Both the position numbers and the translations under genes were made by a program. A model generated the notes under the pieces. It searched no databases and was not told the DNA's origin. It saw nothing but the letters and a program-made list of their open reading frames with translations. Below, piece by piece: positions 3,031-55,897 of a stretch of 55,985 nucleotides of DNA (its first letter is position 1; the number at the start of each line of letters is the position of its first letter). The stretch spans positions 1-55,985 of the forward strand of contig JAIBAE010000022.1 of the NCBI GenBank assembly GCA_019695345.1. The letters run 5' to 3'. Origin of the DNA: Bacteroidota bacterium (GTDB lineage: Bacteria; Bacteroidota; Ignavibacteria; Kapaibacteriales; NICIL-2).

Positions 3031-3047
3031 GAGAGAGGAGAAACGAA

Positions 3048-22869: not shown

Positions 22870-22935
22870 GCTATCGCCTGACGGCACCCTGCGTTCAGTA
22901 ATACACCACCGTCACGATTGCCGCAGAGAACGATA
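22864..22935 (+). repeat. GCTATCGC-type structured intergenic repeat, copy 8 (flipped stem pair, paired with copy 9)
   Basis: Begins TTTTGCTATCGCCTGACGGC inside the terminator T-run and ends TTGCCGCAGAGAAC. The stem is CGGCA/TGCCG. It forms a head-to-head pair with 22941-23006. Confidence 0.8.
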
Positions 22936-22940
22936 GCGAA

Positions 22941-23006
22941 GGTTCTATCCCGCAAACTGTTGCTGTTTATTGAATGATGGTTGGTGCGGACTTGCGATAG
23001 CAAAAA
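22941..23006 (-). repeat. GCTATCGC-type structured intergenic repeat, copy 9
   Basis: Ends are GGTTCTATCCCGCAAAC and GGTGCGGACTTGCGATAGC, with stem CCGCA/TGCGG. It overlaps the T-run of the ftsH terminator on the minus strand. With copy 8 it makes a palindrome of about 143 bp between convergent genes. Confidence 0.85.
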
Positions 23007-25374: not shown

Positions 25375-25441
25375 TTCTGCTATCGCAGGACCGCACCGCA
25401 CATCAACTTCCATACAACCACGTGAGCTGCGGGAAAACAGC
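25375..25441 (+). repeat. GCTATCGC-type structured intergenic repeat, copy 10 (paired with copy 11)
   Basis: Ends are TTCTGCTATCGCAGGACCGC and GCTGCGGGAAAACAG, with stem CCGCA/TGCGG. It is the first half of a head-to-head pair in the long gap upstream of the giant Ig gene. Confidence 0.8.
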
Positions 25442-25506: not shown

Positions 25507-25578
25507 AGGTTCTTTCCGGCATTGTGCTGTTGTATATATAACATTAACGATTGGTGCCGTCGGGGCGACAGCAAAAGA
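25507..25578 (-). repeat. GCTATCGC-type structured intergenic repeat, copy 11 (flipped stem pair)
   Basis: Ends are AGGTTCTTTCCGGCATTG and GGTGCCGTCGGGGCGACAGC. The stem is CGGCA/TGCCG. It is the second half of the pair with 25375-25441. Confidence 0.8.
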
Positions 25579-25702: not shown

Positions 25703-28700
25703 ATGAACATACGTAGTTATTGTTCATTGATTATTACAATGCTTTTGTGCGTAGCAGGGATGCAGGCGCAGAGTGTTAATTCATTTGCTTTCCATAATAG
25801 TACAGCCACCTTTACTTCGATTGTAGGACAGGGTGGTACAAATGATATTGTGTACCCCGGTAGCGGAGCGGGAACAGATTGGGATGACGACTACTTTACA
25901 GGCATTCCAATCGGTTTTACATTTAGTTATTTAGGGAATACATATACTACTTGTGCTGCGAATGTAAACGGGTTTATGATGCTTGGGGGAACAGCTGTAA
26001 GCGGAAGTTCGTGGGTTCCGGATTTAGATGGTAGCTCCGGCTCAAGCGGCCGCCCTGTACTTGCCCCATTTTGGAGTGATATGGAGTTGTTGGATGGTGG
26101 AAACGGATATTTATCGTACAGAACAGATGGAACATCACCTAATCGTGTTTTTACTATAGAGTGGAATCATGCCGAATGGACGTATACAAGTGGGGTGGAA
26201 AGTATTTCGTTTCAGGTTAAATTATATGAGACTACCGGTATTGTTGAGTTTAATTATCAGCAGGAAGACGCACAGGCATCAACACAGTCTATAGGTGTGG
26301 GTATTTCTGCAGCGGCTACAGGTAGCGGCTCTTTTATAAACATAACAAATGCTAACTACAATACAATATCAACTACAACCGAAACAACTGTTTCAACTAG
26401 ACCCAATAGTAATACACGGTTGCGTTTTACACCAATTGGTGGCTCGCAAACAGCCCCAACCAGCATTGGCTTCACCAATGTTACAAATTCAAGCATGACA
26501 GTAGGTTGGACAAATAACTTGGCAAATGCGGTGGCAAATGTTGTGTTTATTTCAACTGATAATACCAACTTTACACAAACAGGATTTGTTAATACCACGG
26601 GCACAGGTGCGTATTCGTTAAATGTTACGGGATTAAGTGGAAATACAACATATTACGTTAGAGTATATGCAGTAAATAATAGTGGTAGTAGTACAGCACT
26701 AACTGGCTCGCAGACAACTGCTTCCGGTACAATGGTAGGTACATATACAATTGGACCCAGCGGTGCTAGCTTTACCTCGGTTAAAATGGCGATAGATACA
26801 ATGAATGCAAAAGGGTTGGCTGGTGCGGTAGTGTTTGAATTATTACCCGCTTATACAAGTTCGGTTGAAACATTTCCATTAACATTTGGATCTATAACGG
26901 GTGCATCTTCTACAAATACGATAACATTCCGTCCGGCAACTGGAGCCACAAACCTTACAATTACTGGCTCTAATGCAACTGCAATATTAGATTTAAACGG
27001 AATAGACTACTTACGTTTCGACGGGCGTCCCGGAGGTAGTGGTATAACATCGCAGTTGACGATTTCCAACACGTCGGCAACGACTACAACATTATCAACA
27101 GTACGTTTTATTAACGATGCTACCTTTAATACATTTACATATTGTACAATACTTGGGGCAACAATTAATACAACAACTGGTTCGGTATCGGGTGGGGGTA
27201 CAATCCATTTTAGTACTGGTACATCTGCTGGTAATTCAAATAACACAATCAGTAATTGCAATATAGGTCCGGTTAACTCCACAACAGCAGTACCCTATAA
27301 AGCAGTGTATGCCTATAATGCCACAACATCTGCTATGAGTTTGAATAATACATTTTCAAACTGTAATATCTATGATATGTTTTATCCGGCCGGTACCAAC
27401 TATTGGTTTTATTTAGGAACAGGTAATGCCGCTTGGGTATTTAACGGGAACAGTATATACCAAACCCAAACACGTTCGCATACAGCGAGTAACAGTAACT
27501 ATGTTTTTTACTGTGCGAGTTCAAGTGTTAATCAGAAATATACCTTTAACGGAAATTATATTGGTGGAACAGCGCCACAGTGTGGTGGAACACCTATGAC
27601 GATTAATATTGGTGCATCTACAACATTAACGCCACTATTTTATGGCATATATGGTACACGGTCATCATCGTTAACTGATACGATGTTTATTACAAATAAC
27701 ACGTTTAGTAATATTAGTTGGACGACTGCTTCAACCAGTAGTTTAGGTTTTAATTGTGTGTATTCGTTTTCAGGTCCCCAATACATTGTAGGTAATACAT
27801 TTGGTAGTGCAACAGCCACCGGCAGTATTGTGATTAACTGTGTTGCTACTGGTACAACTGGAACAGGTTTTACAGGTGCTTATGCATACTCAAGTTCAAC
27901 ATCACTACCAACTATTATGAATAATAATACTGTTGGTGGTATATCAATGGTAAACACCGCAACTGCTTCAGGATGTTATTTTCAAGGATTGTATCTAAGC
28001 AGTACAACGGGTCCGGGTTCAACTATAAGTAACAATGTGATAGGAAATGCAACAGTTAGTAACTCAATTTCAACAAGTACAGGCATCACCGGTACTGTGA
28101 ATATGAGAGGTATTTACTTGGCAACATCAACAGGTGCTGTTGCAGTAGGTGTAACCAATAATCTAATCGCTAATATTACCTGTAACGGTGCATCTACTAC
28201 TTCGGGTGGTCAGTTTGTGCATGGTATTTATGGCTCAAGCGGCATCCATAATATTGCAAATAATACTATCAGAGATTTACGTAATTCAGCACCAAATGCA
28301 AGTTCTACGAATACAACGGTATCGGTAGTGGGGATAAATCAAGCATCAACTACTACCCCTGCCGGTCCAAGCGGGCATACAATTTCCGGTAATACAATCC
28401 ATACGTTAATAAATACAAATACAACAACAACGGGGTTATGGGTTGTTGGAATCAGTGCAAACAGTGCAACAGCAAGCTCAAACTTGGTTGAAAGAAATAC
28501 AATACATTCATTACGCTGTGCTACAACCACAACAACCGCATCGTGTCCAGTGGTAGGAATGTTAGGATTTGGCGGGCCAACCACCTATCAAAATAACATG
28601 ATACGATTAGGGTATGATGAAGGTGGAAATCCTATCTCATTATTAAATGGATATCAGGGATTCCAAAAAGCTTCAACAACTACCATTAACTTTTGGAATA

Positions 28701-31700
28701 ATAGTATTTATATTGGTGGTACAGTTGCAACCGGAGCTGCAAATTCTCTTGGTATATGGCGGAACGGTATTCCATCTTCCGGTACTGATGACATACGGAA
28801 TAATGTAGTGCAAATAGCACGTTCTGGTGGAACTGGCTCATATATTTGTATGAATGTTGGCAGTGCAACTCCAACATCAGTTGCTGCTGCAATAGCCGGG
28901 TTAAACATTAATAATAATGTGTATTACCATAATGGAGCCGGTGGATTTATAGGTGCGATTCAAATTTCAACATCGTACACCGGATATTCTACAATGTCCG
29001 CATGGCGGGGCGCGGTTGTTGGTGACGGTGCTTCTGGATATGGAAACCCCAATTATATCAATCCAACAGGATCGTCATCTTCCGGCGATTTACACATTTC
29101 CTCTACAGGGGCAACACCTATCGAGGGGAACGGTGCTGCAATCAGTTCTGTTGTAAATGACTATGATGGACAAACACGTTCCGGTTTAACACCAAATGAT
29201 ATTGGTGCAGATGCAGGTAATTTTACAGCAACGGATATATTTCCACCTACTATATCATATACACCAATTGCAAACTCGCCTGTAGCAAGTACAAAAGCTG
29301 TATCAGGCGTGGATATAACAGATTACTCTGGAGTTAATACTACAAGCGGTACACGCCCCCGATTATATTACAAAAAGATTGCAGAGGCAAATACATATGC
29401 CGGTAACACTAGTACCGATAACGGTTGGAAATGGGTAGAGGCAAACGGAACTACAACACCATTCTCCTTTACTATTAATTACTCGTTACTCAATAGTTCT
29501 TTAGCGACAGGTGATACTATTGTATATTTTGTTATTGCACAGGATGTTGCTACAACACCAAATGTGGGATTTAATACAGGTGTATTTACAGCCGACCCAA
29601 CATCTGTGAATTTAACTGCCACAAACTTCCCGATGAACATAGTACGTTTTTATAGAATTCTTCCTTCTGTTAGCGGTACAATAAATGTGGGACCAACAGA
29701 AACGATCAACTCAATTACAAACACCGGCGGATTGTTTGAATATATCAACAACAGAGTTGTTGTAGGTAATGTTACAGCGCAAATTACCGGTAACTTGATA
29801 AGTGAAACGGGAACTGTTGCGCTTAACCAAACTTCCGAAGATGGTACTGGTGGATATACAGTTACTATACGTCCTGCAGCGAGTACAACAGATACAATTA
29901 GTGGTTCTTATGCAGGAGGGTTAATCAGATTGAATGGTGCAGATAGGGTTGTTATTGACGGTAGAAGAGTAGGTGATGCAACAGGAAGAAATTTGACGGT
30001 TCATAATACAAGTACAACGGGATCTGTTGCAACAATTCAGTTGGTTAGCTTGGGTATTGCTGCGGGTGCTGTAAATGACACCATTAGGTATTGTAATTTA
30101 GGTGGTGGGCAGAATACCAATAGTACATCAAACGTTATATTCTCCGGAAGCACAATAAATACAGCAGGTTCAGATAATGATAATTTATCAATTGAGAATA
30201 ATGCTATCTATCGTAGCTATTACGGAATCAGATTATTGGGTGTTAGCGGAAGTGCGCATGACAATATAAATATATCCGGAAACTTTATCGGAGCGCAATC
30301 AGTTATTGGTAATACAGCTTCAGGCGATAGCTTGAAGTATAATGGTATTACGCTTTCTCAAGTTAATACCTCAAGCATAACAAGCAACACTATTAAAAAT
30401 ATATCAACTGCTACAACAAACGGGGCAGGGATTCTTACGGATAACAGTTCGGGATTACTTATAAGTAAAAATGTTATAGATGGTATAATCGGAAATGCAT
30501 CCAGTACATATTATACTCGTGCAATATGGCTCAATACTAACACGATAAACAGTACTGTATCTTCAAATGTAATGAATAATATTAAGTACATTAATACAGG
30601 AAACTGGGGATCATATGGACTAGAATGTTCAAGTGGACTTCAAACAACAAATTCTGTAATCATCAATAACATGATATCAAATGTTGCTCACGATTACGGT
30701 GGAGGAGCAGGTAGTACTTTTGCAGGTTATGGTATTCGAATAAATGGAAGCGGTGGTATACAGGTTATACACAATACCGTTTTATTAAGAGGTACAAACG
30801 GTACACCGGCAAGTGGCACCAATAACTCACATGCTTTTGCATGTATTGGTACTGCGCAAAATATGGATGTTCGAAATAATATCTTTTCAAATAGAATGTA
30901 TGGCTCATCCGGCTCTAAGTCATGGTGTGTATATGCTACCTCGTCGGCGACATTTACCAATTTTGATTATAATATTTTAGATACAGCCGGTAATACATTG
31001 CAGGGTGTGTTGGGGTATTATGGTGGTGATTTAGTAACGATAGCAGCATTTAGAACGAGCATGGGGGGAAATCAAAATACTTTCATGACCTCAGTTCCTT
31101 ATGCGGATTCATCAGCAAATTCAAACTTGCACTTAGGTCAGATAGTTACTAATTACAAAGGCACATCAGTCGTATCATCCATTGTATCAACGGATATCGA
31201 TGGCTTAACACGTTCAAACTATATTATAGGCGCAGATGAGGTTAAACCTGTGATCCAGTTTACCCAACAGCCATCGGGCTCAACAATATGCGAAGGCAGC
31301 AACTTTAGTGTTACCTCCGCAATTACTACTCCTATAACCTTTGATGACGGTGTAACACGTACAACACCAACACCAACATATCAATGGTTGTTAAACGGCA
31401 CTCCAATAACCGGAGCAACCAATGCAAGTTATAGTGTAACAGGTGCAACAACGGCTAATGCCGGAAGCTATGCACTACGCGTATATGCATCGAGTATAGA
31501 CTCGGCAACATCCAATGCTGCAACCGTTAATGTATATACCAATGCAAGCATCACAACACATCCAAGTGGAACGGGTAGTAACCTTTGTCCGGGCAATACA
31601 ACATTTACCTTAAGTGTTACAGCTACAGGTACAACACCAACGTATCAGTGGCAAAAACTTGTAGGTGCTACATGGACAGATATCTCTGGTGCAACAGCCT

Positions 31701-34700
31701 CAACATACCGTCCGGTAGCAGGGTGGGCAACAGCAGATAGCGGTAGTTATCGTGTAGTTGTATCCTCAACATCACCATGTTCACAAAGTAATAATAGTAA
31801 TGTTGCGGTTGTAGGTGTATTTACTGCTGCAAGTATAGCAACTCAACCAACCGTTACCCCATCCAACTCGCGTTGTTTAGGCGATGCCTTTACGTTAAGT
31901 GCTTCGGGAGCCGGTTCTGGGGTGCAGTACCAATGGAGATTAAACAGTACCAATATTACAGGTGCTACAAACTCAACGTATAGCGTAACATCGGCTACCC
32001 TGAGTGATTACGGTACATACGATATTGTTGTTTCTAATACATGTAATAGCGTTACTTCCAATACTATAGTTGTTTCACAAACAACACCAACATCAATAAC
32101 AACACAACCTGTAGCAAGCACAACATTATGTCCGGGACAAACGTACAATGTTAGTGTTGTTGCCGCAGGTGCTTCGTTAACGTATCAATGGCAAAAACTA
32201 AACGGCGCTGTTTGGAGTAATATCAGTGGAGCAACAAGTACATCATTTAGCATAGCATCTGTTACAGCAACCGATGCTGCAAGCTATCGAGTTAATGTTA
32301 CCGGTACATGCGGTACGGTTACCTCGGGCAATGCAGTACTGAACGTGAATGTAACAACAGCAATAACAACCCAGCCAACCCAACCAAGTGCCTATTGTGT
32401 AGGTGATAATATCTCTATTAGTGGTTTGGTTGCCGCAGGAACAAACGTAACATATCAATGGCAAAAACTGAGTGGTGTTACCTGGAACTCTATATCCGGT
32501 GCAACAAGTAGTATATACAGCCAAACAAATGCACAGGTTACAGACTCCGGCTCATACCGTGTGGTAGTTAGCGGTACATGTGGTACGGTAAACTCCAATA
32601 CAATAACAATCATTGTTAATTCACCAATTACGGTAACAACTCACCCAGCATGGAACAATCCAAATAAATGTACGGGCGAATCTGCTATAATAAGTGCTAC
32701 CATAGCAGGTACTGTATCAACCTACCAATGGCAAAGATTTAATGGTACCACTTGGGTAAATATCAGCGGTGCATCAGCATCAAGTTATACACTAAATAAT
32801 ATTGCGCTGGCTGATTCGGGCGATTACCGCTTATTACTCACCGGACCTTGTAGTTCGCCAACAACAACAAATTCAGATAGGTTGTTTGTACAACAAAACG
32901 TACAGATAACAGCAAATCCTCAAGGTTCGGCTGTGTGTGCAGGAAACTCAATTTCACTGTCAGTAACAACTATCGGAACAGTTGTATCCTATCAGTGGCA
33001 ACAAGACCAGCTACGCAACGGCACATGGACTAATATCAGTGGTGCAACAAGTTCTTCATATTCCAAATCAAATGTAACAGTTGCGGACTCCGGTAATTAC
33101 AGAGTATCAATAATTGGTACATGTAGTGCAATACCGGTTGTTTCAACAGGTGCTTCTATAGTAATTCAGTTACCATACTCAGTTACATCGCAACCAACAT
33201 GGCCAACTACACCTACAAATGTAGGTCAGGTTGTTTCGTTAACAGTTGGTTATACCGGTACAGCAAACTTCCAGTGGCAACGCGATCAACAGCGTAACAA
33301 CAACTGGGTTAACGTTGGTACCAACACAGCTACATATTCCTATACGGTTAATACTGTTGCAGATTCAGGTAATTACCGTTGTATAGTAACCGGACCTTGT
33401 ACAGCTGGAAGTGTTACAACAAGTACAGCTGCGGTATATACATGTCAGCCACCAACATTTACTTCGCAGCCACAACAACCGGGTACGTTGTGTCCGGGTG
33501 GTACGTTATCGTTAAGTGTACAAGTAAATACACAAGGTCAAACAGTAACCTATCAATGGCAACGTGATGTTAACCGAAATGGCACATGGACAAATATTAG
33601 TGGCGCTACAAATACATCGTATGTAAATAGTAACCTACAAACTACCGATGCAGGGTTCTATCGTGTACAACTGACAAGTTCTTGTAACGCTGTTCCAGTT
33701 AACAGTAATACGGTAGATGTTGTTCTTAACCAGCCAATTACAGTTACAACTCAACCAACATCACAGACAGTATGTGTTGGAGCAAATATTTCGTTTACGG
33801 CTGCCGCAACCGGCAATAACCCAACGTATCAATGGTTCTATAACAATGCGCCAATCAGTACAGGATTAAATGCTACTGCTGCATCTGCTACATTACAGTT
33901 AACCAATGTATCGGCAGCTAGTGCGGGTTCGTATAAATGTTTTATTAGTGGTACGTGTTCACCTAACGGCGTGTTTACCAATGCGGCAACATTAACAGTA
34001 AACAGTACTGTAACTATATCGCAACAACCACAGAACACAACCGGATGTGCAGGAACTCCTGTAACCTTTAGTGTTGCTGCGCAAGGTACAAATGTTGCCT
34101 ATCAATGGAAGTTCGGTGCTAGCGTAATTAGCGGTGCAACAAACGCCACATATTCTATTGCAAGTCCAACAACAGCAAACAACGGTTCCTATAGTGTAGA
34201 TGTAACAAGTACCTGTGGTAATACTACCAGTAACAGTGCAACATTAACAATTTACATTCCGGCAGCATTCAGTACACAACCTTCAGCTCAAACTGTATGT
34301 CAGGGTACAAATATTTCTTTATCAATTGGTATTAATGCAGATGCAAGCGGACCAACATACCAATGGCGTAAAAATGGTGCCGATATCAATGTGGCATTAA
34401 ACCCAACAGCATTATCTACAACACTTGTATTAAATAATGCTACACCTTCCGATAACGCTACCTATACCTGTATGGTGAAAACAGCATGTCAGCCAAATGG
34501 TATCGTTTCCAACGGAGCAACATTAACAGTAAACCCGGCTACTTCAATTGCAACCCAGCCAACAGGCACAACCGTATGCGAAGGAACTTCGGCAACACTG
34601 AATGTAGTAGCTCAGGGTACATCGTTAACATATCAATGGAAGAAAAACGGAACGGATATCTTTGGTGCAACCAATTCAAGTTATGTAATACCAAGTGTTG

Positions 34701-36970
34701 TACTCAGTGATGCCGGCAATTACACCGTAGTAGTAAATGGCACATGTGCACCATTAAGCGTAACATCCAATACCGCTACGTTGGCAGTAAACCAACGCGT
34801 GCAGATAACCGGAGCAACGTTGCAAAATCAAACAGTTTGCCAAGGTGCAAACGTTCAGTTTGTAACAAGTGCAATTGGTACAGGTGTTACCTATCAATGG
34901 CGTAAAAACGGAGCGGCAATTACAGCCAACTCAACAGCATTAACGGCAACACTATCGTTAACCAATGTAACACCAACTGATAACGGTACGTACGATTGTA
35001 TTGTAACCGGTACTTGTAATCCAAATGGTGTGGCTACTAACTCAGCTTCATTGGCAGTGAACTTACCTGTTATCATACAAACAACACCACAGAACCAATC
35101 GGTTTGCCAAGGTGCAAATGTTCAGTTTACAACAAGTGCAACCGGCTCGGTGTTGGGATATCAGTGGCGTTACAACGGACAACCGATTTCCGGTAATGCA
35201 ACGGCAACAACAACAACGCTTGTATTAAATAACGTAACGGCAGCTAATAACGGAACCTACGATGTAATTGTGAATGGTGTATGTAACGTTCCAACATCGG
35301 CACCTGCTACATTAACGGTAAATCAACCAATTGCAATTACAACACAACCATTAGCACAAAAAGGTTGTATCGGTTCAACCATAACAACCTTTGTAACCAC
35401 AAGTGGTAATGTACTAAGTTATCAGTGGCAGAAAGACGGAAATGATATTCCGGGTATGACGACAGCAGTGCTTACAATTACTAACCCAACAAGTGCTTCT
35501 TCGGGTATTTACCGTTGTGTGGTAAATGGTAGTTCGGCATGTGGCACACCGCAAATAATTTCCAATGCAGTTGGTGTGGTAATTGGTACACCGGTAGTAA
35601 TTACAACACAACCACAAGATAAATCCGTAGCATACGGTTCAACAGTGACGGTAACTGTGGATGCTAGTGGCGCAGGGTTCGGACAAAACGATCAACTCTT
35701 CTACCGTTGGTATAAAGGAACAACACAACTAAACGACGATAACCGTATCAACGGTTCAACAACCGGAACGCTTACCATACGTGGTATTCAGCCAAGCGAT
35801 GTAACGGCAGATTACACCGTTGTAGTACTTGGCTCATGTGGTCAGGCAACAAGCCGTCAGTTTGCAATTGTGGTTCCAAGTGCAAGTATCAACTCACAAC
35901 CACAGGGTTCAACCATCTGTGCCGGACGCCCGACAGTGTTCTCGGTATCGGCAGTAGCAACCGTACCAAACAGTACACTTTCGTATCAATGGTATCGCGG
36001 TGCAACAGCATTAACCGATGGCGGTACAATTAGCGGTGCATCAACAGCACTGTTACAAATATCAAGTGTTGCCGCAGCCGATAGCGGAGACTACACTGTA
36101 CAAATACTTGTACAACCAGGTGGTGCACGTGTAACATCTAATGTTGCACATCTCACCGTAGGCGAAACACCAACAATAACCACACAACCTGCAAGCCAGG
36201 AAGTATGTGCCGATAGCAAAGTAACCTTAAGCGTAGCTGCAAAAGGTATTGGGCTAACATACAAATGGTTGGTATCAGGTTCAACAACAGTACTTGGTAC
36301 ATTGCCAACATTAGAGATTGCACAAGTACAACCATCAATGGCGGGCTCGTATACGGTAGAGATAACAAACATCTGTGGTGCTGTAACAAGCAGTGCAGCA
36401 GTGATTACCGTCAATACATTGCCAAGTATAACCGAGCAACCACAAGGGGCTACAGTTACCGTTGGTGGCAACTTTACTGTACGTGTAGTAGCAACCGGAA
36501 GCGCGCCAATAACATATCAGTGGCGTAAAGGCGGCACCGATATTCCAAACGCTACAAACTCAACATTTACAAAAGCAAACGCCGATAAAACCGACGAAGC
36601 AGAATACACCTGTATCGTTCGTAACGGTTGCGGCGAAGTTACAACAGCTAAAGCCAATGTATTGGTAAGCACGGTTAGTGTTGGCGATGCAGAACAATTT
36701 GGATACAGCATACAATCTACCGAACCAAATCCGGTTAGCGATGTAGCAACAGTACGTTACACAGTAGCGCAATCGGGTGTTATTAAAATCACTCTTACGG
36801 ATGTAAACGGCAGAACCATTGCAACACTATGCAACGATATGCAAGAAGCCGGTAATCATTCGGTTCTGTTACGCAGTGGCGATTTAGATATAGCTTCGGG
36901 CACATATCAAATCACGCTGGTAACACCACAGGGATACACAACAACAAAACGAATAGTAATTGTTAAGTAA
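25703..36970 (+). CDS. Giant Ig-repeat surface protein (3755 aa) with T9SS sorting domain
   Basis: One uninterrupted frame encodes 3755 residues. The order is: signal peptide MNIRSYCSLIITMLLCVAGM (then QAQS); a nidogen-like beta domain about 25-250 (TGIPIGFTFSYLGNTYTTCA, PFWSDMELL); one fibronectin type III domain about 253-345; and a right-handed beta-helix-like region about 350-1200 with many N.I....F.N turns. A second beta-helix-like region spans about 1330-1840. About 1850-3660 holds 20 Ig-like repeats of roughly 90 residues, each with I.TQP....VC.G, a central YQW and a closing G.Y...V.G.C. The final 85 residues are a T9SS type A sorting domain (TEPNPVSDVATVRYTV, IASGTYQITLVTPQG, ending IVIVK). 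Such proteins are long adhesins or S-layer-like fibres in Bacteroidota, and a role in adhesion or gliding is inferred. A strong terminator follows at 36991. Confidence 0.95.
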   Translation: MNIRSYCSLIITMLLCVAGMQAQSVNSFAFHNSTATFTSIVGQGGTNDIVYPGSGAGTDWDDDYFTGIPIGFTFSYLGNTYTTCAANVNGFMMLGGTAVSGSSWVPDLDGSSGSSGRPVLAPFWSDMELLDGGNGYLSYRTDGTSPNRVFTIEWNHAEWTYTSGVESISFQVKLYETTGIVEFNYQQEDAQASTQSIGVGISAAATGSGSFINITNANYNTISTTTETTVSTRPNSNTRLRFTPIGGSQTAPTSIGFTNVTNSSMTVGWTNNLANAVANVVFISTDNTNFTQTGFVNTTGTGAYSLNVTGLSGNTTYYVRVYAVNNSGSSTALTGSQTTASGTMVGTYTIGPSGASFTSVKMAIDTMNAKGLAGAVVFELLPAYTSSVETFPLTFGSITGASSTNTITFRPATGATNLTITGSNATAILDLNGIDYLRFDGRPGGSGITSQLTISNTSATTTTLSTVRFINDATFNTFTYCTILGATINTTTGSVSGGGTIHFSTGTSAGNSNNTISNCNIGPVNSTTAVPYKAVYAYNATTSAMSLNNTFSNCNIYDMFYPAGTNYWFYLGTGNAAWVFNGNSIYQTQTRSHTASNSNYVFYCASSSVNQKYTFNGNYIGGTAPQCGGTPMTINIGASTTLTPLFYGIYGTRSSSLTDTMFITNNTFSNISWTTASTSSLGFNCVYSFSGPQYIVGNTFGSATATGSIVINCVATGTTGTGFTGAYAYSSSTSLPTIMNNNTVGGISMVNTATASGCYFQGLYLSSTTGPGSTISNNVIGNATVSNSISTSTGITGTVNMRGIYLATSTGAVAVGVTNNLIANITCNGASTTSGGQFVHGIYGSSGIHNIANNTIRDLRNSAPNASSTNTTVSVVGINQASTTTPAGPSGHTISGNTIHTLINTNTTTTGLWVVGISANSATASSNLVERNTIHSLRCATTTTTASCPVVGMLGFGGPTTYQNNMIRLGYDEGGNPISLLNGYQGFQKASTTTINFWNNSIYIGGTVATGAANSLGIWRNGIPSSGTDDIRNNVVQIARSGGTGSYICMNVGSATPTSVAAAIAGLNINNNVYYHNGAGGFIGAIQISTSYTGYSTMSAWRGAVVGDGASGYGNPNYINPTGSSSSGDLHISSTGATPIEGNGAAISSVVNDYDGQTRSGLTPNDIGADAGNFTATDIFPPTISYTPIANSPVASTKAVSGVDITDYSGVNTTSGTRPRLYYKKIAEANTYAGNTSTDNGWKWVEANGTTTPFSFTINYSLLNSSLATGDTIVYFVIAQDVATTPNVGFNTGVFTADPTSVNLTATNFPMNIVRFYRILPSVSGTINVGPTETINSITNTGGLFEYINNRVVVGNVTAQITGNLISETGTVALNQTSEDGTGGYTVTIRPAASTTDTISGSYAGGLIRLNGADRVVIDGRRVGDATGRNLTVHNTSTTGSVATIQLVSLGIAAGAVNDTIRYCNLGGGQNTNSTSNVIFSGSTINTAGSDNDNLSIENNAIYRSYYGIRLLGVSGSAHDNINISGNFIGAQSVIGNTASGDSLKYNGITLSQVNTSSITSNTIKNISTATTNGAGILTDNSSGLLISKNVIDGIIGNASSTYYTRAIWLNTNTINSTVSSNVMNNIKYINTGNWGSYGLECSSGLQTTNSVIINNMISNVAHDYGGGAGSTFAGYGIRINGSGGIQVIHNTVLLRGTNGTPASGTNNSHAFACIGTAQNMDVRNNIFSNRMYGSSGSKSWCVYATSSATFTNFDYNILDTAGNTLQGVLGYYGGDLVTIAAFRTSMGGNQNTFMTSVPYADSSANSNLHLGQIVTNYKGTSVVSSIVSTDIDGLTRSNYIIGADEVKPVIQFTQQPSGSTICEGSNFSVTSAITTPITFDDGVTRTTPTPTYQWLLNGTPITGATNASYSVTGATTANAGSYALRVYASSIDSATSNAATVNVYTNASITTHPSGTGSNLCPGNTTFTLSVTATGTTPTYQWQKLVGATWTDISGATASTYRPVAGWATADSGSYRVVVSSTSPCSQSNNSNVAVVGVFTAASIATQPTVTPSNSRCLGDAFTLSASGAGSGVQYQWRLNSTNITGATNSTYSVTSATLSDYGTYDIVVSNTCNSVTSNTIVVSQTTPTSITTQPVASTTLCPGQTYNVSVVAAGASLTYQWQKLNGAVWSNISGATSTSFSIASVTATDAASYRVNVTGTCGTVTSGNAVLNVNVTTAITTQPTQPSAYCVGDNISISGLVAAGTNVTYQWQKLSGVTWNSISGATSSIYSQTNAQVTDSGSYRVVVSGTCGTVNSNTITIIVNSPITVTTHPAWNNPNKCTGESAIISATIAGTVSTYQWQRFNGTTWVNISGASASSYTLNNIALADSGDYRLLLTGPCSSPTTTNSDRLFVQQNVQITANPQGSAVCAGNSISLSVTTIGTVVSYQWQQDQLRNGTWTNISGATSSSYSKSNVTVADSGNYRVSIIGTCSAIPVVSTGASIVIQLPYSVTSQPTWPTTPTNVGQVVSLTVGYTGTANFQWQRDQQRNNNWVNVGTNTATYSYTVNTVADSGNYRCIVTGPCTAGSVTTSTAAVYTCQPPTFTSQPQQPGTLCPGGTLSLSVQVNTQGQTVTYQWQRDVNRNGTWTNISGATNTSYVNSNLQTTDAGFYRVQLTSSCNAVPVNSNTVDVVLNQPITVTTQPTSQTVCVGANISFTAAATGNNPTYQWFYNNAPISTGLNATAASATLQLTNVSAASAGSYKCFISGTCSPNGVFTNAATLTVNSTVTISQQPQNTTGCAGTPVTFSVAAQGTNVAYQWKFGASVISGATNATYSIASPTTANNGSYSVDVTSTCGNTTSNSATLTIYIPAAFSTQPSAQTVCQGTNISLSIGINADASGPTYQWRKNGADINVALNPTALSTTLVLNNATPSDNATYTCMVKTACQPNGIVSNGATLTVNPATSIATQPTGTTVCEGTSATLNVVAQGTSLTYQWKKNGTDIFGATNSSYVIPSVVLSDAGNYTVVVNGTCAPLSVTSNTATLAVNQRVQITGATLQNQTVCQGANVQFVTSAIGTGVTYQWRKNGAAITANSTALTATLSLTNVTPTDNGTYDCIVTGTCNPNGVATNSASLAVNLPVIIQTTPQNQSVCQGANVQFTTSATGSVLGYQWRYNGQPISGNATATTTTLVLNNVTAANNGTYDVIVNGVCNVPTSAPATLTVNQPIAITTQPLAQKGCIGSTITTFVTTSGNVLSYQWQKDGNDIPGMTTAVLTITNPTSASSGIYRCVVNGSSACGTPQIISNAVGVVIGTPVVITTQPQDKSVAYGSTVTVTVDASGAGFGQNDQLFYRWYKGTTQLNDDNRINGSTTGTLTIRGIQPSDVTADYTVVVLGSCGQATSRQFAIVVPSASINSQPQGSTICAGRPTVFSVSAVATVPNSTLSYQWYRGATALTDGGTISGASTALLQISSVAAADSGDYTVQILVQPGGARVTSNVAHLTVGETPTITTQPASQEVCADSKVTLSVAAKGIGLTYKWLVSGSTTVLGTLPTLEIAQVQPSMAGSYTVEITNICGAVTSSAAVITVNTLPSITEQPQGATVTVGGNFTVRVVATGSAPITYQWRKGGTDIPNATNSTFTKANADKTDEAEYTCIVRNGCGEVTTAKANVLVSTVSVGDAEQFGYSIQSTEPNPVSDVATVRYTVAQSGVIKITLTDVNGRTIATLCNDMQEAGNHSVLLRSGDLDIASGTYQITLVTPQGYTTTKRIVIVK
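31250..36690 (+). repeat. 20 tandem Ig-like domain repeats inside the giant gene
   Basis: I counted 20 units by their start (I.TQP or similar, then C.G) and their central QW. Units 2, 4, 5 and 6 share YQWQ-type strands with a W.(D/N/S)ISGA insertion. Units 7 to 9 share a Q/R-rich RNGTWTNISGA-like variant. Units 12 to 15 share RKNG or KKNG. This grouping suggests block duplications instead of single-unit growth. Confidence 0.85.
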
Positions 36971-37022: not shown

Positions 37023-37087
37023 TTTGCTATCGCCCGACCGCTCCTAATGGCTGCTATTAAGATACCGTACTTGTGCGGGATAGTTCC
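37021..37087 (+). repeat. GCTATCGC-type structured intergenic repeat, copy 12
   Basis: It begins TATTTGCTATCGCCCGACCG in the tail of the terminator and ends TGTGCGGGATAG. The stem is CCGC/GCGG, with the fifth pair lost. Confidence 0.85.
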
Positions 37088-42057: not shown

Positions 42058-42105
42058 TATGATGAAATTACAAGTAAACAATTATGGATGTAAATTGCTG
42101 GAGAT

Positions 42106-42168
42106 ATTGTCCCGCATAGATATTGATGTTTATTGCTAAACGCTCAGTGCGGTCGGGCGATAGCAGTG
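42106..42168 (-). repeat. GCTATCGC-type structured intergenic repeat, copy 13
   Basis: Ends are TTGTCCCGCATAG and AGTGCGGTCGGGCGATAGC, with stem CCGCA/TGCGG. Read on the minus strand it begins 6 nt after the stop codon of the 42175-42711 gene. Confidence 0.85.
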
Positions 42169-45568: not shown

Positions 45569-45634
45569 TTTTTTGCTATCGCCCTGACCGCACCGCACGC
45601 CAACAATGTAACACCAATGCGTTGCGGGGCAGAA
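45569..45634 (+). repeat. GCTATCGC-type structured intergenic repeat, copy 14 (paired with copy 15)
   Basis: TTTTTTGCTATCGCCCTGAC starts 4 nt after the receptor stop codon, and the element ends TTGCGGGGCAGAATC. The stem is CCGCA/TGCGG. Confidence 0.88.
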
Positions 45635-45669: not shown

Positions 45670-45736
45670 TGTTCTTCTCCGCCAGTAATTGGTTATGTAT
45701 AGAAAGCCGCTTGGTGCGGCTTGCGGTAGCAACAAC
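45670..45736 (-). repeat. GCTATCGC-type structured intergenic repeat, copy 15
   Basis: Ends are TGTTCTTCTCCGCCAG and TTGGTGCGGCTTGCGGTAGC. The stem is reduced to CCGC/GCGG. It forms the second half of a head-to-head pair. The remainder of the 45565-45950 gap is an AT-rich leader of the WD40 gene. Confidence 0.75.
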
Positions 45737-48351: not shown

Positions 48352-48418
48352 TTTTTGCTATCGCCCGACCGCACCAAATGGCGCATTACACAAAGCCGTT
48401 CTTCTGCGGGAAAGAAAC
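48352..48418 (+). repeat. GCTATCGC-type structured intergenic repeat, copy 16 (best consensus)
   Basis: TTTTTGCTATCGCCCGACCG starts 4 nt after the WD40 gene stop. The element ends TTCTGCGGGAAAGAAACG, with stem CCGCA/TGCGG. It is the clearest reference copy. Confidence 0.9.
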
Positions 48419-48536: not shown

Positions 48537-49733
48537 ATGCGTTTATTACTAATAATTCTTGTAACTGCAACAACATTGTATACAACGCTTCTTGCACAAT
48601 GGGAACGATGCAACGTTCCAAACAACACGGCAATCTCTTGTTTTGCTTTATCGGGCACTACTATATATGCCGGCACATCGGGCGCATTACTGCAATCAAC
48701 CAATTCAGGCACAAGCTGGAATAGAATAAATATCAACAGCCAGAGTATGCGTGCCGTTGCTATCGACATCTACGAAAATCGAATTACCGTAGCCGCCCAG
48801 GGAATTTTGGAAAGTGCAGTTATTACATCAACTGATAACGGTTCAAGTTGGACTGTAATAAACACAGGGCTTACAAACAGCGAGGTTAATTCTCTAGCCC
48901 GTATGGGTGTAACGCTTTTTGCAGGAACACCCGCAGGAGTATTTCTTACAACAAACAACGGGGTAAACTGGGTGCAGGCTAATTCCGGTTTAACAGATAC
49001 TGCTGTAGCGGCATTGGCAGTAATGGGCACAACTGTTGTTGCCGCTACAAGTAGCGGCAATATATTTCTTTCTACAAACAATGGAACAAACTGGATGCAA
49101 ACTGCACATCCAGCAACAACTTCGTTTAATTGTATGGCGGTCAGCGGAACCAACCTGTATGTTGGAACACACGGAGATGGATTATTTGTTAGCACTAACA
49201 TAGGAACAAGTTGGAGTGCTATCAGCACCGGCTTAGGCGATAAGAAAGTTCTTACGTTATATGCAGATGCCCCCAACCTTTTTGCAGGAACGTACGGTAC
49301 CGGCGTAGTGCGCTCCACAAACAACGGCACAAGTTGGGAAGAAATTAATACAGGGTTACTCGATTTGCGTGTTCGTGCAGTAATAGTTCATAACCAATAT
49401 CTCTTTGCCGGTTCTTCGTTTGGTATCTGGCGGAGAAAAACGTCGGAGGTACTATCCTCGGCGGAGTCATCATCAACCGCAATAACAACCACATGGTGTT
49501 TTCCCAATCCTGCAACAGAAATTATCACAATAACAACTCCACCAAGTTTAGAAAACAGTACAGGCACAATCCGTTACTCAGTTGTAAACGTACAGGGCGA
49601 AGAAGTGATGCACATAGATAGTGATAACAAGAACGTACCAGTATCAACCAGTGTTCTACCAAATGGTATGTACACCATTGTTGCAACGTGTGGTATTCAA
49701 CGTGCGGCAACTACACTCTCAATACTTAGGTAG
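48537..49733 (+). CDS. Secreted Ycf48/BNR-like beta-propeller protein with T9SS sorting domain
   Basis: This 398-residue protein has a signal peptide (MRLLLIILVTATTLYTTLLA). Blades of the form TIYAGTSGALLQSTNSGTSW, TLFAGTPAGVFLTTNNGVNW, NLYVGTHGDGLFVSTNIGTS and NLFAGTYGTGVVRSTNNGTS cover residues 25-310, as in Ycf48-like/sialidase-type propellers. The final 85 residues are a T9SS type A sorting domain (TWCFPNPATEIITITTPPSL, VQGEEVMHIDSD, LPNGMYTIVATCGIQR). That tail is closely similar to the tails of the next two T9SS genes. AAGGAA lies before the ATG. The product is expected at the cell surface. Its ligand is unknown. Confidence 0.92.
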   Translation: MRLLLIILVTATTLYTTLLAQWERCNVPNNTAISCFALSGTTIYAGTSGALLQSTNSGTSWNRININSQSMRAVAIDIYENRITVAAQGILESAVITSTDNGSSWTVINTGLTNSEVNSLARMGVTLFAGTPAGVFLTTNNGVNWVQANSGLTDTAVAALAVMGTTVVAATSSGNIFLSTNNGTNWMQTAHPATTSFNCMAVSGTNLYVGTHGDGLFVSTNIGTSWSAISTGLGDKKVLTLYADAPNLFAGTYGTGVVRSTNNGTSWEEINTGLLDLRVRAVIVHNQYLFAGSSFGIWRRKTSEVLSSAESSSTAITTTWCFPNPATEIITITTPPSLENSTGTIRYSVVNVQGEEVMHIDSDNKNVPVSTSVLPNGMYTIVATCGIQRAATTLSILR

Positions 49734-49796
49734 TTATTGTACTCTTTTTCTTGTATTGCAGGCAGCTTTGTACAATACAATGATTCACACATAAAG

Positions 49797-49848: not shown

Positions 49849-51408
49849 ATGAAAAATAAAGGAACCAACTTTCTTACTGTATTATTTGTAGTGTCGGTAT
49901 TCCTGTTACCAATTCATATCAAGGCACAGGATGGATCATTGGATAAAACATTTGGTAGCAACGGAATAGTAACTACAGACTTTAGCGAAAGCGATGCAGG
50001 TTTTTCCGTTATCGTTCAGCCCGATGGTAAAATTATTGTTGCAGGTACTAGTGTTACTGGATTTGCTATAGCACGCTATAATAGTAATGGTAGTTTAGAT
50101 AACACATTTGGTGTTGGCGGAAAGCAAGAAACATCATTTAAAGATGATATTCACAGTGAGTTGTGTACGGGCGGTGCTGCGGTACTGCAAACCGATGGGA
50201 AAATACTTATGGCGGGCGATGTTTATTTTAAAGGTCAAGGACTGCAAGGAGATTTTGCTGTATTACGGTACAATAGTAACGGCACGTTAGATACAACATT
50301 TGGTAAGGGCGGTAAAGTAACAACCAATGTAAGCAACTACGAAAACCATGCCTACGCTATTGCCGTACAGGCCGATGGCAAAATACTTGTTGCCGGTGAT
50401 GCAAATGGTTCTGCCGGTACACATTATGGTATGGCACTTGTGCGATATAACACTGATGGTAGTTTGGATAAATCATTCAACGCCAATGGTATAATTGTGT
50501 ACCCGCTTAGTGTTGATTCTATAAACTATGCTACTGCTTACACCATTGCAATTCAAAAGGACGGCAAAATACTTATAGCAGGAGGCGGTAAAGCAGCCAA
50601 TGGAAATATTACTCTTCTTCGGTTTAATAACAATGGCAGTATAGATAATAGCTTTGGTAACAACGGCAAAGTAGTAACCGAAGTAGCAAACACCGAACTG
50701 GATATAGCGTATTCTATGGTACTGCAAAGCGATAATAAAATTGTTGTTGTAGGTACTACCGATGTCGGTGGAACAAATAGTAACATCATTCTACTGCGCT
50801 ATAATGCAAATGGCTCGCCCGACAACACGTTTGGCACAAACGGAATGGTAATTACCGATGTGGATACTGAGGATGCCGGTACCTCGGTTGTAGTACAACC
50901 CGACGGTAAAATTATAGCGGTGGGTGCATCCAACGGCAACATTGTGGTACTACGATTCAATAACAACGGAAGTTTAGATAAGAGCTTTAACAACAACGGA
51001 AAAGTAATTACAACCATAGGGGGCAATAGTGCTGCTATCTCTGTTGCTCTGCAACCAGACCATAAAATTGTAATTGCCGGACTCGATAATGATGACTTTG
51101 TAGTTGCTCGGTATAACAACTCAATCACATCTGCTGTGGACGAGCAATCACAGTTTACAACATCCACATGGTGTTCTCCAAATCCTGCAACAGAAATTAT
51201 CACTATAACAACTCCACCAAGTTTAGAAAACAGTACAGGTATCATCCGTTACTCGGTTGTTAATCTACAAGGTGAAGAGGTGATGCACACAGAAAGCGAT
51301 AGTAAGAACATCAGTATCCCAATACATGATTTTGTAAGTGGTGTGTACACTATTGTTGCAACGTGCGGCATGCAACGTACAACAACAATGTGTACAATAG
51401 CACCATAA
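49849..51408 (+). CDS. Delta-60 repeat surface protein with T9SS sorting domain
   Basis: This 519-residue protein has a signal peptide (MKNKGTNFLTVLFVVSVFLL, then PIHIKAQ). Seven delta-60 repeats follow, each G(S/T)(L/I/P)D..F...G then QPDGKI.(V/I)AG: DGSLDKTFGSNG, NGSLDNTFGVGG, NGTLDTTFGKGG, DGSLDKSFNANG, NGSIDNSFGNNG, NGSPDNTFGTNG and NGSLDKSFNNNG. Residues about 438-519 are a T9SS type A sorting domain with STWCSPNPATEIITITTPPS, LQGEEVMHTESDSKNI and SGVYTIVATCGMQR. Delta-60 repeats build beta-propeller-like surface proteins of unknown ligand. The sorting-domain DNA is nearly identical to that of the following gene, while the rest of the two proteins is unrelated, pointing to gene conversion. 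Confidence 0.93.
   Translation: MKNKGTNFLTVLFVVSVFLLPIHIKAQDGSLDKTFGSNGIVTTDFSESDAGFSVIVQPDGKIIVAGTSVTGFAIARYNSNGSLDNTFGVGGKQETSFKDDIHSELCTGGAAVLQTDGKILMAGDVYFKGQGLQGDFAVLRYNSNGTLDTTFGKGGKVTTNVSNYENHAYAIAVQADGKILVAGDANGSAGTHYGMALVRYNTDGSLDKSFNANGIIVYPLSVDSINYATAYTIAIQKDGKILIAGGGKAANGNITLLRFNNNGSIDNSFGNNGKVVTEVANTELDIAYSMVLQSDNKIVVVGTTDVGGTNSNIILLRYNANGSPDNTFGTNGMVITDVDTEDAGTSVVVQPDGKIIAVGASNGNIVVLRFNNNGSLDKSFNNNGKVITTIGGNSAAISVALQPDHKIVIAGLDNDDFVVARYNNSITSAVDEQSQFTTSTWCSPNPATEIITITTPPSLENSTGIIRYSVVNLQGEEVMHTESDSKNISIPIHDFVSGVYTIVATCGMQRTTTMCTIAP
51167..51390 (+). repeat. T9SS sorting-domain DNA cassette, copy shared with 52508-52731
   Basis: Over about 224 bp this stretch matches 52508-52731 with only around 15 differences, by eye. 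It starts TCCACATGGTGTTCTCCAAA and covers most of the C-terminal sorting domain. The cassette at 49488-49700 is a more diverged third copy. Confidence 0.8.
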
Positions 51409-51535
51409 GCAAAGAACAGCACAGCAAGATCAGGTATAAAGGACTATCTACTCTGACACTTAAACAGAAGTTATGTATTCATATATTACAGTAATCAATT
51501 TGTACTAAAATTATTAACTAACTACACCGACTGTT

Positions 51536-52753
51536 ATGAAAAAAATGAACATACTAAGAATATTGTGCGTGCTTTTTTTAGTGAGCAGTACTTCGCTTTA
51601 TTGCCAATGGAAAAGAGATAGCACTTTAAAAAGTAACATAGTAAAATTTATAAATAACTCTACCACCGTATTTGGAGTAGGATTTGCCTTGCAAAAAAGG
51701 GACAATAATGGTACTACATGGGAAAAGATTACCATTGAACCAAAAAACTCCAGAGTGTATGATGCTGTCCTGCACAATCAACTTATAATTGCTTCTACAG
51801 ATGAAGGAATATACAGATCTACTGATAACGGAAGCACGTGGACTTCTGTAACTAATAACTTGCCCATTCAGCCATCTAAAATATTTGCAACTAATTTACT
51901 CTATGTTAATAATACAATGGTTGCCTGTGTTACCGGTAAGGGGCTATATTCTTCAACAAATAGTGGTGATTCATGGCAAGAAGTAAACAGTGGATTTGAT
52001 GTAGCCAACTTTGTTATGTGTACTTTGGTCTATGATAACAATATGTACATTGGTACAAGTAGTAATGGAATATATGTTTCCACAAATAATGGATTGAATT
52101 GGAGAACAAGAAACGATGGTTTTTCAACTACAAACGCAGCAGAAAAATCTATTAGGGTTTTAATATCACATCAAGGCAATATTGTAGCTGGAACAGGTAA
52201 TGGTGTTTTTATCTCAAGTAATAACGGAGTAAAATGGAGCCCAACTCCTACGAAAATTCCGGAATTAGACCCTTTGTGTATGGCTACAAAGAATAAGAGT
52301 CTGTTTGTTGGTACTGAACGGGGACTATTTGTTACCTCGGATAATGGAATGACATGGGAAAAATTAGAAGCTGAGTTTTCGTCCTTTCCTATTGAGAGAT
52401 TAGCTATACTTGGAGACCAAATGTTCGTGGGTACTTATGGCGGGCTATTATATACAAGGAATGTGTTCGAAATCATCTCTAATGTAAACGTTGATAACAC
52501 ATTACCATCCACATGGTGTTCTCCAAATCCTGCAACAGAAATTATTACTATAACAACTCCACCAATTTTAGAAAAAAGCACAGGCGTAATTCGTTATTCG
52601 GTTGTTAATCTACAAGGTGAAGAGGTGATGCACACAGAAAGCGATAGTAAAAACATCAGTATCCCAATACATGATTTTGCAAGTGGCGTGTACACCATTG
52701 TTGCAACGTGCGGCTTGCAACGCACAACAACTATGGTTAGTATAGTGCAGTAA
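51536..52753 (+). CDS. Secreted Ycf48/BNR-like beta-propeller protein with T9SS sorting domain (second)
   Basis: This 405-residue protein has a signal peptide (MNILRILCVLFLVSSTSLYC preceded by MKK; the start at 51536 is the first ATG). Blades: LIIASTDEGIYRSTDNGSTW, MYIGTSSNGIYVSTNNGLNW, NIVAGTGNGVFISSNNGVKW, LFVGTERGLFVTSDNGMTWE and MFVGTYGGLLYTRN. The last 85 residues are a T9SS type A sorting domain almost identical to that of the previous gene. It is paralogous to 48537-49733 and to the partial gene at 1-608. AT content is a little higher than in the neighbours. Its role is unknown, and export to the cell surface is expected. Confidence 0.92.
   Translation: MKKMNILRILCVLFLVSSTSLYCQWKRDSTLKSNIVKFINNSTTVFGVGFALQKRDNNGTTWEKITIEPKNSRVYDAVLHNQLIIASTDEGIYRSTDNGSTWTSVTNNLPIQPSKIFATNLLYVNNTMVACVTGKGLYSSTNSGDSWQEVNSGFDVANFVMCTLVYDNNMYIGTSSNGIYVSTNNGLNWRTRNDGFSTTNAAEKSIRVLISHQGNIVAGTGNGVFISSNNGVKWSPTPTKIPELDPLCMATKNKSLFVGTERGLFVTSDNGMTWEKLEAEFSSFPIERLAILGDQMFVGTYGGLLYTRNVFEIISNVNVDNTLPSTWCSPNPATEIITITTPPILEKSTGVIRYSVVNLQGEEVMHTESDSKNISIPIHDFASGVYTIVATCGLQRTTTMVSIVQ
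52508..52731 (+). repeat. T9SS sorting-domain DNA cassette, copy shared with 51167-51390
   Basis: This is the counterpart of 51167-51390. The upstream halves of the two genes (Ycf48-like versus delta-60) show no similarity, so the identity ends at the domain boundary. Confidence 0.8.
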
Positions 52754-52890
52754 GGAAATCAACTGTACTTCATTACAAACGTATCATAGGTATATCATTC
52801 GAGATTTTTTTGAGAACCTGGTGGCGGTAACAGGTCAAGTGTTGATTCTCAAACACTAATATTATTAATTATATTCTATTATTAAGTATC

Positions 52891-54080: not shown

Positions 54081-54149
54081 CGGTTCTTTCCGGCAGTATT
54101 ACGGGTTTGTAAATATTGTGGGGCGGTGCCGTCCGGCGATAGCAAAAAA
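54081..54149 (-). repeat. GCTATCGC-type structured intergenic repeat, copy 17 (flipped stem pair)
   Basis: Ends are CGGTTCTTTCCGGCAGTA and GCGGTGCCGTCCGGCGATAG, with stem CGGCA (54091-54095) / TGCCG (54127-54131). The remainder of the 53911-54258 gap holds a terminator, this element and a hairpin at 54213-54236. Confidence 0.85.
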
Positions 54150-54922: not shown

Positions 54923-55897
54923 ATGAAACTACTTACAACGTTGGTGGTAATAGTAGTGTGTATGTGCGGTACATATACCCAAACGTATGCTCAGGAACCA
55001 ATGTACAAATACTTGTTTAATGGAAATACGTTTAATAATGAGAACCCGAATGTAGAAAGAGGGCAGGCAATTAACCATAGTTACGGAATTGGCAGAGACG
55101 GCATGGCAAATGGCTCGATACAGTTTGCAGCCGATGGTGGATTTTATATGTATCCACGTGCTTTAAACCCTTTGGATATGCAAAGTGTAACAATCGCTTT
55201 TTGGTATAAATCTGTAGCAAGTAAACAACCTGTTACAAGAATATTAAATATACAGGATAGTACAGCAAATGATGCATCCGTACTACTTGTAACAAAACGT
55301 AAAGATGCACAACAACAAACAAATCTCGAATTCAAAATTGGATTAAGCTTTGGTAGTAATATTACTATAACAACACCAATAGACGCGGTTTGGAATCACT
55401 TTGCACTAAGTTACTCTGTTGCCGATAAAAAAGTAACGCTTTATAAAAATGGAAAACAGGTGGATACCAAGCAGGCAAACTGCCAACTTGATATGCAGAT
55501 AGTATCATTGTTTTCCCTACAACTAGATGCGCAAGGCAACCCTACAACCGATACCGACCCAAGTCTGGTAGATGATTTGTTTATATACGACCGCGCCATT
55601 ACAGCTGCCGAAGCACTTGCTTTAGGCGGAAGTGGCGGCACAAACGATGTTACAGAAACTACACACAACACTATGCAGATATATCCAAATCCTGCATCAA
55701 CGTATGCAACACTTTCTGTACCAACCGATGCACAGCCCGATGTACTTATTGTGCGCACAATAACCGGTGCAGAAGTGTTACGCACAACCTATACACAACA
55801 CATTGATGTGCAACAACTACCCGCAGGTGTTTATACGGTAGAGCTTTATTCTAACTTGGTGATACTGAACCGTAGTTTACTACAGCTTGTTCGGTAA
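54923..55897 (+). CDS. LamG/concanavalin-like domain protein with T9SS sorting domain
   Basis: This 324-residue protein has a signal peptide (MKLLTTLVVIVVCMCGTYTQ, then TYAQ). Residues about 25-235 are a LamG-like jellyroll (YKYLFNGNTFNNENPNVERG, SVTIAFWYKS, AVWNHFALSYSVADKKVTLY, KNGKQVD, DPSLVDDLFIYDRAITAAEA). This fold binds glycans or proteins in characterised homologues. Residues about 245-324 are a T9SS type A sorting domain (IYPNPASTYATLSVPTDAQP, LPAGVYTVELYSNLVILNRS). It is expected to be a cell-surface carbohydrate-contact protein. A strong terminator follows at 55935. Confidence 0.93.
   Translation: MKLLTTLVVIVVCMCGTYTQTYAQEPMYKYLFNGNTFNNENPNVERGQAINHSYGIGRDGMANGSIQFAADGGFYMYPRALNPLDMQSVTIAFWYKSVASKQPVTRILNIQDSTANDASVLLVTKRKDAQQQTNLEFKIGLSFGSNITITTPIDAVWNHFALSYSVADKKVTLYKNGKQVDTKQANCQLDMQIVSLFSLQLDAQGNPTTDTDPSLVDDLFIYDRAITAAEALALGGSGGTNDVTETTHNTMQIYPNPASTYATLSVPTDAQPDVLIVRTITGAEVLRTTYTQHIDVQQLPAGVYTVELYSNLVILNRSLLQLVR

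Follow-up and report, generated by a model that had tools for sequence, protein, structure and literature searches.

The window analysed here is a 55,985-nt stretch of the genome of a Bacteroidota bacterium (Kapaibacteriales), near the right end of which a short repeat lies upstream of a called gene. A weight-matrix scan of the window found 18 copies of this repeat (Table 1), ten with the arms CCGCA/TGCGG, five with the flipped arms CGGCA/TGCCG and three in which four of the five stem pairs are formed. The first-pass annotation had placed the flipped arms of the copy at 54081 exactly, and its counts of ten, four (flipped copies at 15711, 22864, 25507 and 54081) and three were reproduced by the scan, apart from a fifth flipped copy on the minus strand, which had been overlooked, as had the second hairpin, the rule of placement at gene borders and the wider extent of the family described below. 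The copies at 7523 and 8825 are 97% identical over 71 nt and differ in their flanks. At gathering scores Rfam gave no match in the window, so the repeat has no described RNA family there, and a tRNA search of the window found none.

Other features of the window are an open frame of 3,755 amino acids with many internal repeats (25703-36970) and, near it, a protein (54962-55897) with a Por_Secre_tail match, which by its sequence suggests type IX secretion. Neighbouring open frames end in a 253-nt segment that occurs three times (49486-49738, 51161-51413 and 52506-52758), its copies being 75-100% alike.

Table 1 Copies of the repeat in the window, with the parts of the copy at 54081
Feature	Position	Strand	Arms	Context
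Copy	731-789	+		right core GCGTTAGC; four of five pairs in register
Flipped copy	1881-1939	-	CGGCA/TGCCG	within called gene, opposite strand
Copy	7523-7583	+	CCGCA/TGCGG	hairpin within loop
Copy	8825-8885	+		adjoins stop codon of minus-strand gene ending 8899
Copy	11656-11715	+	CCGCA/TGCGG	adjoins stop codon of minus-strand gene ending 11726
Flipped copy	15712-15771	+	CGGCA/TGCCG	
Copy	18579-18642	+	CCGCA/TGCGG	core GCGCAAGC
Copy	19640-19698	-	CCGCA/TGCGG	adjoins stop codon of plus-strand gene ending 19632
Flipped copy	22870-22930	-		head-to-head with 22943 copy, between convergent genes
Copy	22943-23001	+	CCGCA/TGCGG	paired with 22870 copy, 12 nt between the left ends
Copy	25379-25439	-	CCGCA/TGCGG	head-to-head with 25510 copy
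Flipped copy	25510-25572	+	CGGCA/TGCCG	core GCGACAGC
Copy	37026-37085	-	CCGCA/AGCGG	four of five pairs; right behind intrinsic terminator of gene ending 36970
Copy	42105-42164	+	CCGCA/TGCGG	
Copy	45575-45634	-	CCGCA/TGCGG	adjoins stop codon at 45564; head-to-head with 45672 copy
Copy	45672-45730	+	CCGCC/TGCGG	four of five pairs
Copy	48357-48416	-	CCGCA/TGCGG	adjoins stop codon at 48347
Flipped copy	54081-54149	+	CGGCA/TGCCG	start-facing; called gene at 54259
Part of 54081 copy: TTCTTTC	54084-54090			
Part: left arm CGGCA	54091-54095			
Part: right arm TGCCG	54127-54131			
Part: mini-hairpin GCGATAGC	54136-54143			
Part: A tail				

Stem pairing in a dispersed repeat family

The repeat has the consensus TTCTTTC-C[C/G/T]GCA … TGC[G/C/A]G-linker-GCGNNAGC-AAA. 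With a two-block weight matrix (chosen cut-off, scan score 20), 279 copies were found in a first set of 855,874 bases and, with the matrices fixed, 310 in a further 1,120,948 bases; the reversed sequence gave none in either set, and a strict pattern had 65 matches in the whole genome vs. none for its reverse, so the repeat is not a product of chance. These 589 copies lie within the 1.98 Mb read of the 4.56-Mb genome, and the genome-wide total is about 1,360, assuming an even spread.

A basal stem of 5 bp encloses a loop of mostly 29-35 nt. The earlier statement that this loop varies freely is nearly correct: its sequence is free, but additional length comes as self-complementary hairpin inserts (GGGCGTATGCAATACGCCC, GGGGCAGAAAATTTTCTGCCC and CGCCCTGC..GCAAGGCG), and the effective loop stays near 32 nt. 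The inserts are nearly confined to the element, 16/16, 5/5, 11/12 and 2/2 of their occurrences lying inside it. On the left flank the motif CACGATAACCGTTGTTT stands at about -29 in 116 of 279 copies, and copies in G002, a genome from the same family but a different genus, carry AGCATAACGCAAGAACGCTTGG on the same side; given these motifs, the full unit may be some 110-120 nt long. Covariation within the left motif fits a motif with shifting register. A pseudoknot between AACCGTT of the left motif and AACGGTT of the loop, hinted at by a few copies, is absent from the list of covarying positions and was rejected.

A base-pair flip on both sides of the stem had been taken by the first-pass annotation as covariation, and thus as selection on the stem as a structure. 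The flipped pair (pair 2) is of Watson-Crick type in 242 of 248 copies left after removal of near-duplicates at 80%, with the arms placed blind to pairing (C-G 152, G-C 75, T-A 14, A-T 1, other 6), and in 297 of the 310 copies from the separate DNA (C-G 168, G-C 115, T-A 14, other 13). In an R-scape-like test with a tree-aware null, its covariation score was G = 354 vs. a maximum of 33 among 25 simulated alignments, which upholds the flipped pair and supports the structural reading. Pair 1 (score 30, E about 0.2) is the sole other stem pair near significance; pairs 3 and 4 are nearly invariant and pair 5 is paired in only about three-quarters of the copies. Departures at pair 1 (T-G 10 vs. C-A 2) give a weak hint of a plus-strand RNA. 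Among 70 of the 279 copies, picked for high score, absence of a long loop and low mutual identity, 96.9% of cells are paired vs. 14.7-55.7% with the partner displaced by 1-3 columns, and RNAalifold recovered the two helices unaided. Another count of pairs shifted the arms to maximise pairing (12 copies moved), and our conclusions lean on the pairing-blind counts. Nor do the flipped copies stem from one recent duplicate, as the five in the window are 18-33% identical in their flanks and 17-42% in their loops, which is about chance. Joint changes of the paired stem bases are so frequent that the fold must be of importance.

The same genome has another repeat family, to all appearance extragenic, whose cores are cTTCGg (exact TTGCTTCGGCAGA and AACCCGGTGCGA, 39 and 65 exact matches in the 1.98 Mb); it sometimes adjoins the main repeat.

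A second hairpin and the strand that folds

To the right of the stem, 270 of 279 and 304 of 310 copies carry GCGNNAGC (NN = AT, TT, GT, AC, CA, AA and others), which by sequence would place a GNNA loop on two G-C pairs, the criterion for a stable DNA mini-hairpin. The accessible text of PMC4686876 describes DNA mini-hairpins with a GNA or GNNA loop on two G-C pairs as extraordinarily stable and nuclease-resistant, and a DNA tetraloop study is cited in that of PMC2984261. The d(GCGNAGC)/d(GCGNNAGC) mini-hairpins match the conserved right core exactly in both genera; in the accessible text of PMC4686876 they are DNA structures in vitro, whereas here they belong to a natural repeat. In G002, 9 of 35 distinct tails have GC-GAA-GC where the mini-hairpin would stand, and the other 26 form hairpins of differing sequence (score 3.13 vs. 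1.79 in shuffled sequences, sd 0.34). We know of no natural repeat family built on such mini-hairpins, and a literature search for one found none.

The stable loop class in RNA would be GNRA, which 17 of 270 loops fit and 253 do not. At pair 2, G·T accounts for 3 of 19 non-Watson-Crick cells (0/6 and 3/13), about the level of random mismatches. The conserved mini-hairpin sequence and the lack of a G·T preference thus favour single-stranded DNA (ssDNA) over RNA, and the folded form appears to be DNA, on the strand TTCTTTCC...GCGNNAGCAAA. Computed DNA folding of six stretches of the window gave z values from 1.41 to -1.25, no clear gain over shuffles, and RNA folding of six window strands gave z from -1.61 to 0.75. 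Since the stem is thermodynamically weak and its DNA folding resembles that of shuffled sequence, a protein would have to hold it.

Placement at gene borders and in relatives

While 86% of the sequence is coding, just 3 of the first 279 copies fall within called genes. The right end of a copy usually abuts a gene border, that is a stop codon, a terminator T-tract or a promoter. Among 439 spacers of at least 60 bp, 219 have no copy, 175 have one, 45 have two in the order (-,+) and none has another order; in the further DNA the 560 spacers comprise 323 without a copy, 193 with one, 42 with (-,+) and 2 with (-,-). Two-element spacers thus have the order (-,+) in 87 of 89 cases (45/45 and 42/44), and the right ends of paired copies therefore nearly always point outward to both genes.

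A copy stands at 146 of the 436 stop edges and at 119 of the 442 start edges (265 in total). The median distance between stop-facing copies and the stop codon is about 8-10 nt, 96 of 152 and 94 of 151 of them at 0 to about 16 nt; a second group stands 50-100 nt off, and in the class at 30-110 nt an intrinsic terminator directly precedes 22 of 30 copies. Start-facing copies lie about 85 nt upstream of the called start codon, and in 31 of 104 a TANNTTTG box, which we take to be a Bacteroidota-type promoter, stands between copy and start codon (about 7 in shuffles). The right end is the one nearer the gene in 135 of 152 stop-facing vs. 78 of 124 start-facing copies, and for solitary start-facing copies the border polarity is less clear-cut. 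Two other readings were rejected. A substitute for terminators would show a trade-off, and none is clear (intrinsic terminators at 15 of 111 stop-adjoining copies vs. 50 of 295 copy-free edges); for gene cassettes, occupation of both ends in 36 of 319 genes (odds ratio about 2) is too weak.

A model of the repeat (R1) had 56 matches in G002 and 0 or 1 borderline match in each of 29 other relatives; the sister genus g2 has no clear match, and the 400,000 bases read of genome G001 hold no comparable repeat. The same border rule applies in G002, where the right arms of 28 listed matches lie 0, 1, 6, 8, 15, 15 … nt from the stop codons that they face, 3 of the matches being flagged inside genes and 2 of these probably spurious. 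In both genera the element stands upstream of rtcB, with arms and core kept and the loop diverged. Orthologous stop edges that bear the element in G002 also bear it here in 4 of 4 cases, vs. 22 of 41 overall (p = 0.11), and start edges in 1 of 2, some of the G002 loci having been chosen for having the element; the conservation of orthologous edge positions is suggestive only. Near-identical copies within the genome share about -5 to +12 around the unit, beyond which their flanks are unrelated, and two such copies (C95 and C87) are 95% identical over 100 nt. The duplicates in unrelated flanks and the element kept before rtcB together indicate that the repeat both spreads and persists.

Upstream of an RtcB-family gene at L057:6295 there are also two matches to YrlA (Y RNA-like, RF02553) on the plus strand (L057:5929-6056 and 6074-6183; E 6.4e-10 and 6.8e-5, neither reaching the gathering score), and the region upstream of the gene shows strong conservation in G002.

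Comparison with known elements and interpretation

REP, BIME and REPIN elements are described in the accessible parts of PMC3733652, PMC6006769 and PMC8266576 as short, extragenic, high-copy elements of species-specific sequence with a hairpin on one strand, solitary or in head-to-head pairs and mostly near gene ends. The repeat behaves like a REP element and shares these traits, inverted pairs among them. Unlike REP/RAYT systems, it has a second mini-hairpin and also sits upstream of promoters. Membership of the GTAG-REP/RAYT group was rejected. Their mark GT[AG]G, 0-2 nt 5' of the hairpin foot, stands beside the stem in 0 of 279 copies on either strand, and they have a stem of 7-20 bp with a loop of 2-5 nt or a long bulged hairpin, in contrast to the 5 bp and mostly 29-35 nt found here. 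The RAYT gene at C55 (NF047646, 81.9 bits, cut-off 80) is flanked by unrelated hairpins, the nearest copy being about 700 nt off, beside another gene. Y1_Tnp gave no match in G002, where the repeat is present; that genome is 91% complete, and a miss is possible. Copies stand about 130 and 250 nt away from the open frame of the IS200-type gene at C123, as is common for genes in this genome.

The RAYT gene at L080:1249-1794 (minus strand) has hairpins of its own, AGTCAGGTG..CACCTGACT and AGGTCAGTTG..CAACTGACCT, unrelated to the repeat. At L082:1216-2181 and 2693-3532 (minus strand) a reverse transcriptase like that of retron St85 (233.7 bits against a cut-off of 235) and a PRTase-CE neighbour were found, a pair that, from sequence, probably constitutes a retron defence system.

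CGTC-type REPs are reported, in the accessible text of PMC3733652, from Chlorobi, Bacteroidetes and others, mostly as head-to-head dimers with no known transposase; they differ from the repeat in their stems of 8-9 bp and loops of 4-5 nt, and the CGTC run that marks them occurs in the repeat only within the flipped class. Three other candidates were rejected. For a MITE of a DDE transposon, with terminal inverted repeats and a target-site duplication, no offset stood clearly above permuted controls. For a TnpB/omega-RNA (IS605) right end, PF07282 had no match in the genome and matched 6 of 14 controls. For a composite REPIN-like pair as the unit, a search at relaxed threshold for hidden inverted partners of 185 solitary copies yielded 7 on the left (6 left-arm, 1 right-core) vs. 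9 on the right, the side used for comparison. The Y2 transposase family (IS91/Helitron-like, PF04986) stands apart from these three: it gave 0 matches in five genomes, and its controls gave none either.

Integron attC sites are folded ssDNA whose structure is kept as the sequence varies, with a variable hairpin tip, and they lie directly after stop codons. The repeat is like them in its proposed ssDNA fold, kept structure, hairpin-bearing tip and stop-codon adjacency. Unlike attC, which has one orientation after the cassette gene, it also faces starts, at 119 of 265 occupied edges. None of ten tyrosine-recombinase matches exceeds the TIGR02249 cut-off for an integron integrase, below which all 14 controls match too, and no GTTRRRY box, the attC motif, was seen at the repeat ends. 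The occupied start edges and the absence of an integrase above cut-off led us to reject this reading. A literature search returned REP work and no account of the repeat, subscription journals being mostly outside its coverage.

The best reading is a new REP-like, ssDNA-folding extragenic element. We assign a probability of roughly 0.55 to an element of this type that acts as folded ssDNA on the strand named above and is spread by a putative ssDNA enzyme. The 5-bp stem would close a free loop of about 30 nt, and near the 3' end of the unit the nuclease-resistant mini-hairpin of two base pairs (cGNNAg here, cGNAg in the related genus) may protect the 3' side of the ssDNA. The putative ssDNA-specific enzyme would recognise the fold and copy or insert the element while the strand is exposed. 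Copies would survive only where transcription units stay undamaged, and would consequently end flush with stop codons, terminator T-tracts and promoters. The polarity of the right end could come either from a polar insertion target, with the A-tract on the right, or from a one-way boundary useful to the host. Against this reading stands that no mobilising enzyme was found, the RAYT gene having its own hairpins and G002 lacking a Y1 match at 91% completeness, and that no target-site duplication was seen.

A possible, if rather unlikely, alternative is that a bound host protein makes the element a one-way block to transcription or some other process, so that each unit is insulated from both sides. 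The polarity toward the unit at both ends, the (-,+) order of paired copies and the same rule in G002 are in accordance with such a polar boundary, and the positions common to both genera, at the four stop edges and upstream of rtcB, would also fit a host function. However, many stop and start edges have no copy, intrinsic terminators are about equally frequent beside copies and elsewhere, g2 shows no clear match, and the near-identical copies across loci show spread. Less probable again is an RNA element, transcribed at mRNA ends, whose stem-loop would stabilise, process or terminate the transcript or stall ribosomes past the stop codon. The close spacing to stop codons speaks for it, and the accessible text of PMC12306157 gives REPs that lie no more than 15 nt from the end of an ORF a potential part in translational control. 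Yet the strand that carries the stable mini-hairpin serves as template at stop edges, whereas at start edges it is the coding one, the loops are not of the GNRA class, RNA folding of the window strands is unremarkable, intrinsic terminators already precede most copies in the 30-110 nt class, and many copies lie upstream of genes.

The covariation could in principle be neutral, with template switching copying arm mutations (quasipalindrome correction) and no selection on the fold. Where two copies share at least 75% identity in the rest of the sequence, pair 2 is the same in 190 comparisons, differs on both sides in 88 and on one side in none, an unusually clean pattern that would suit such templated repair, but each arm has just 5 nt and some 30 nt separate the two, pairs 3 and 4 hardly vary, and the second hairpin and loop type are kept in two genera with different sequence, all of which makes this origin very improbable. 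Scarcely credible is a flip that arose once or twice and was then inherited by copying within subfamilies: it correlates with a linker base (scores 41.8 and 43.6), but there are several pair types, flips occur within a 92-94% identical subfamily, at least 62 state changes (78 with shuffled labels) on a tree from which pair 2 was left out make them recurrent, and the tree-aware null contradicts it.

The REP-like, ssDNA-folding element preferred here may, more speculatively, be part of a family-level system, in which the putative ssDNA enzyme would spread the mini-hairpin element and the host would keep copies as one-way borders round transcription units, many units then lying between inverted boundary elements; we regard this extension as doubtful. 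The polarity to borders at both ends of a unit is stricter than in the accessible descriptions of REP elements (PMC3733652, PMC6006769, PMC8266576), and its cause, be it a polar mechanism of insertion or a polar function as boundary, would if true be new. The enzyme, if found, would extend the short list of ssDNA-folding mobile systems. Judged by its right core, this would be a natural repeat family that matches the most stable DNA mini-hairpins known, and its hundreds of copies offer material for testing the role of a folded single strand in a living chromosome.
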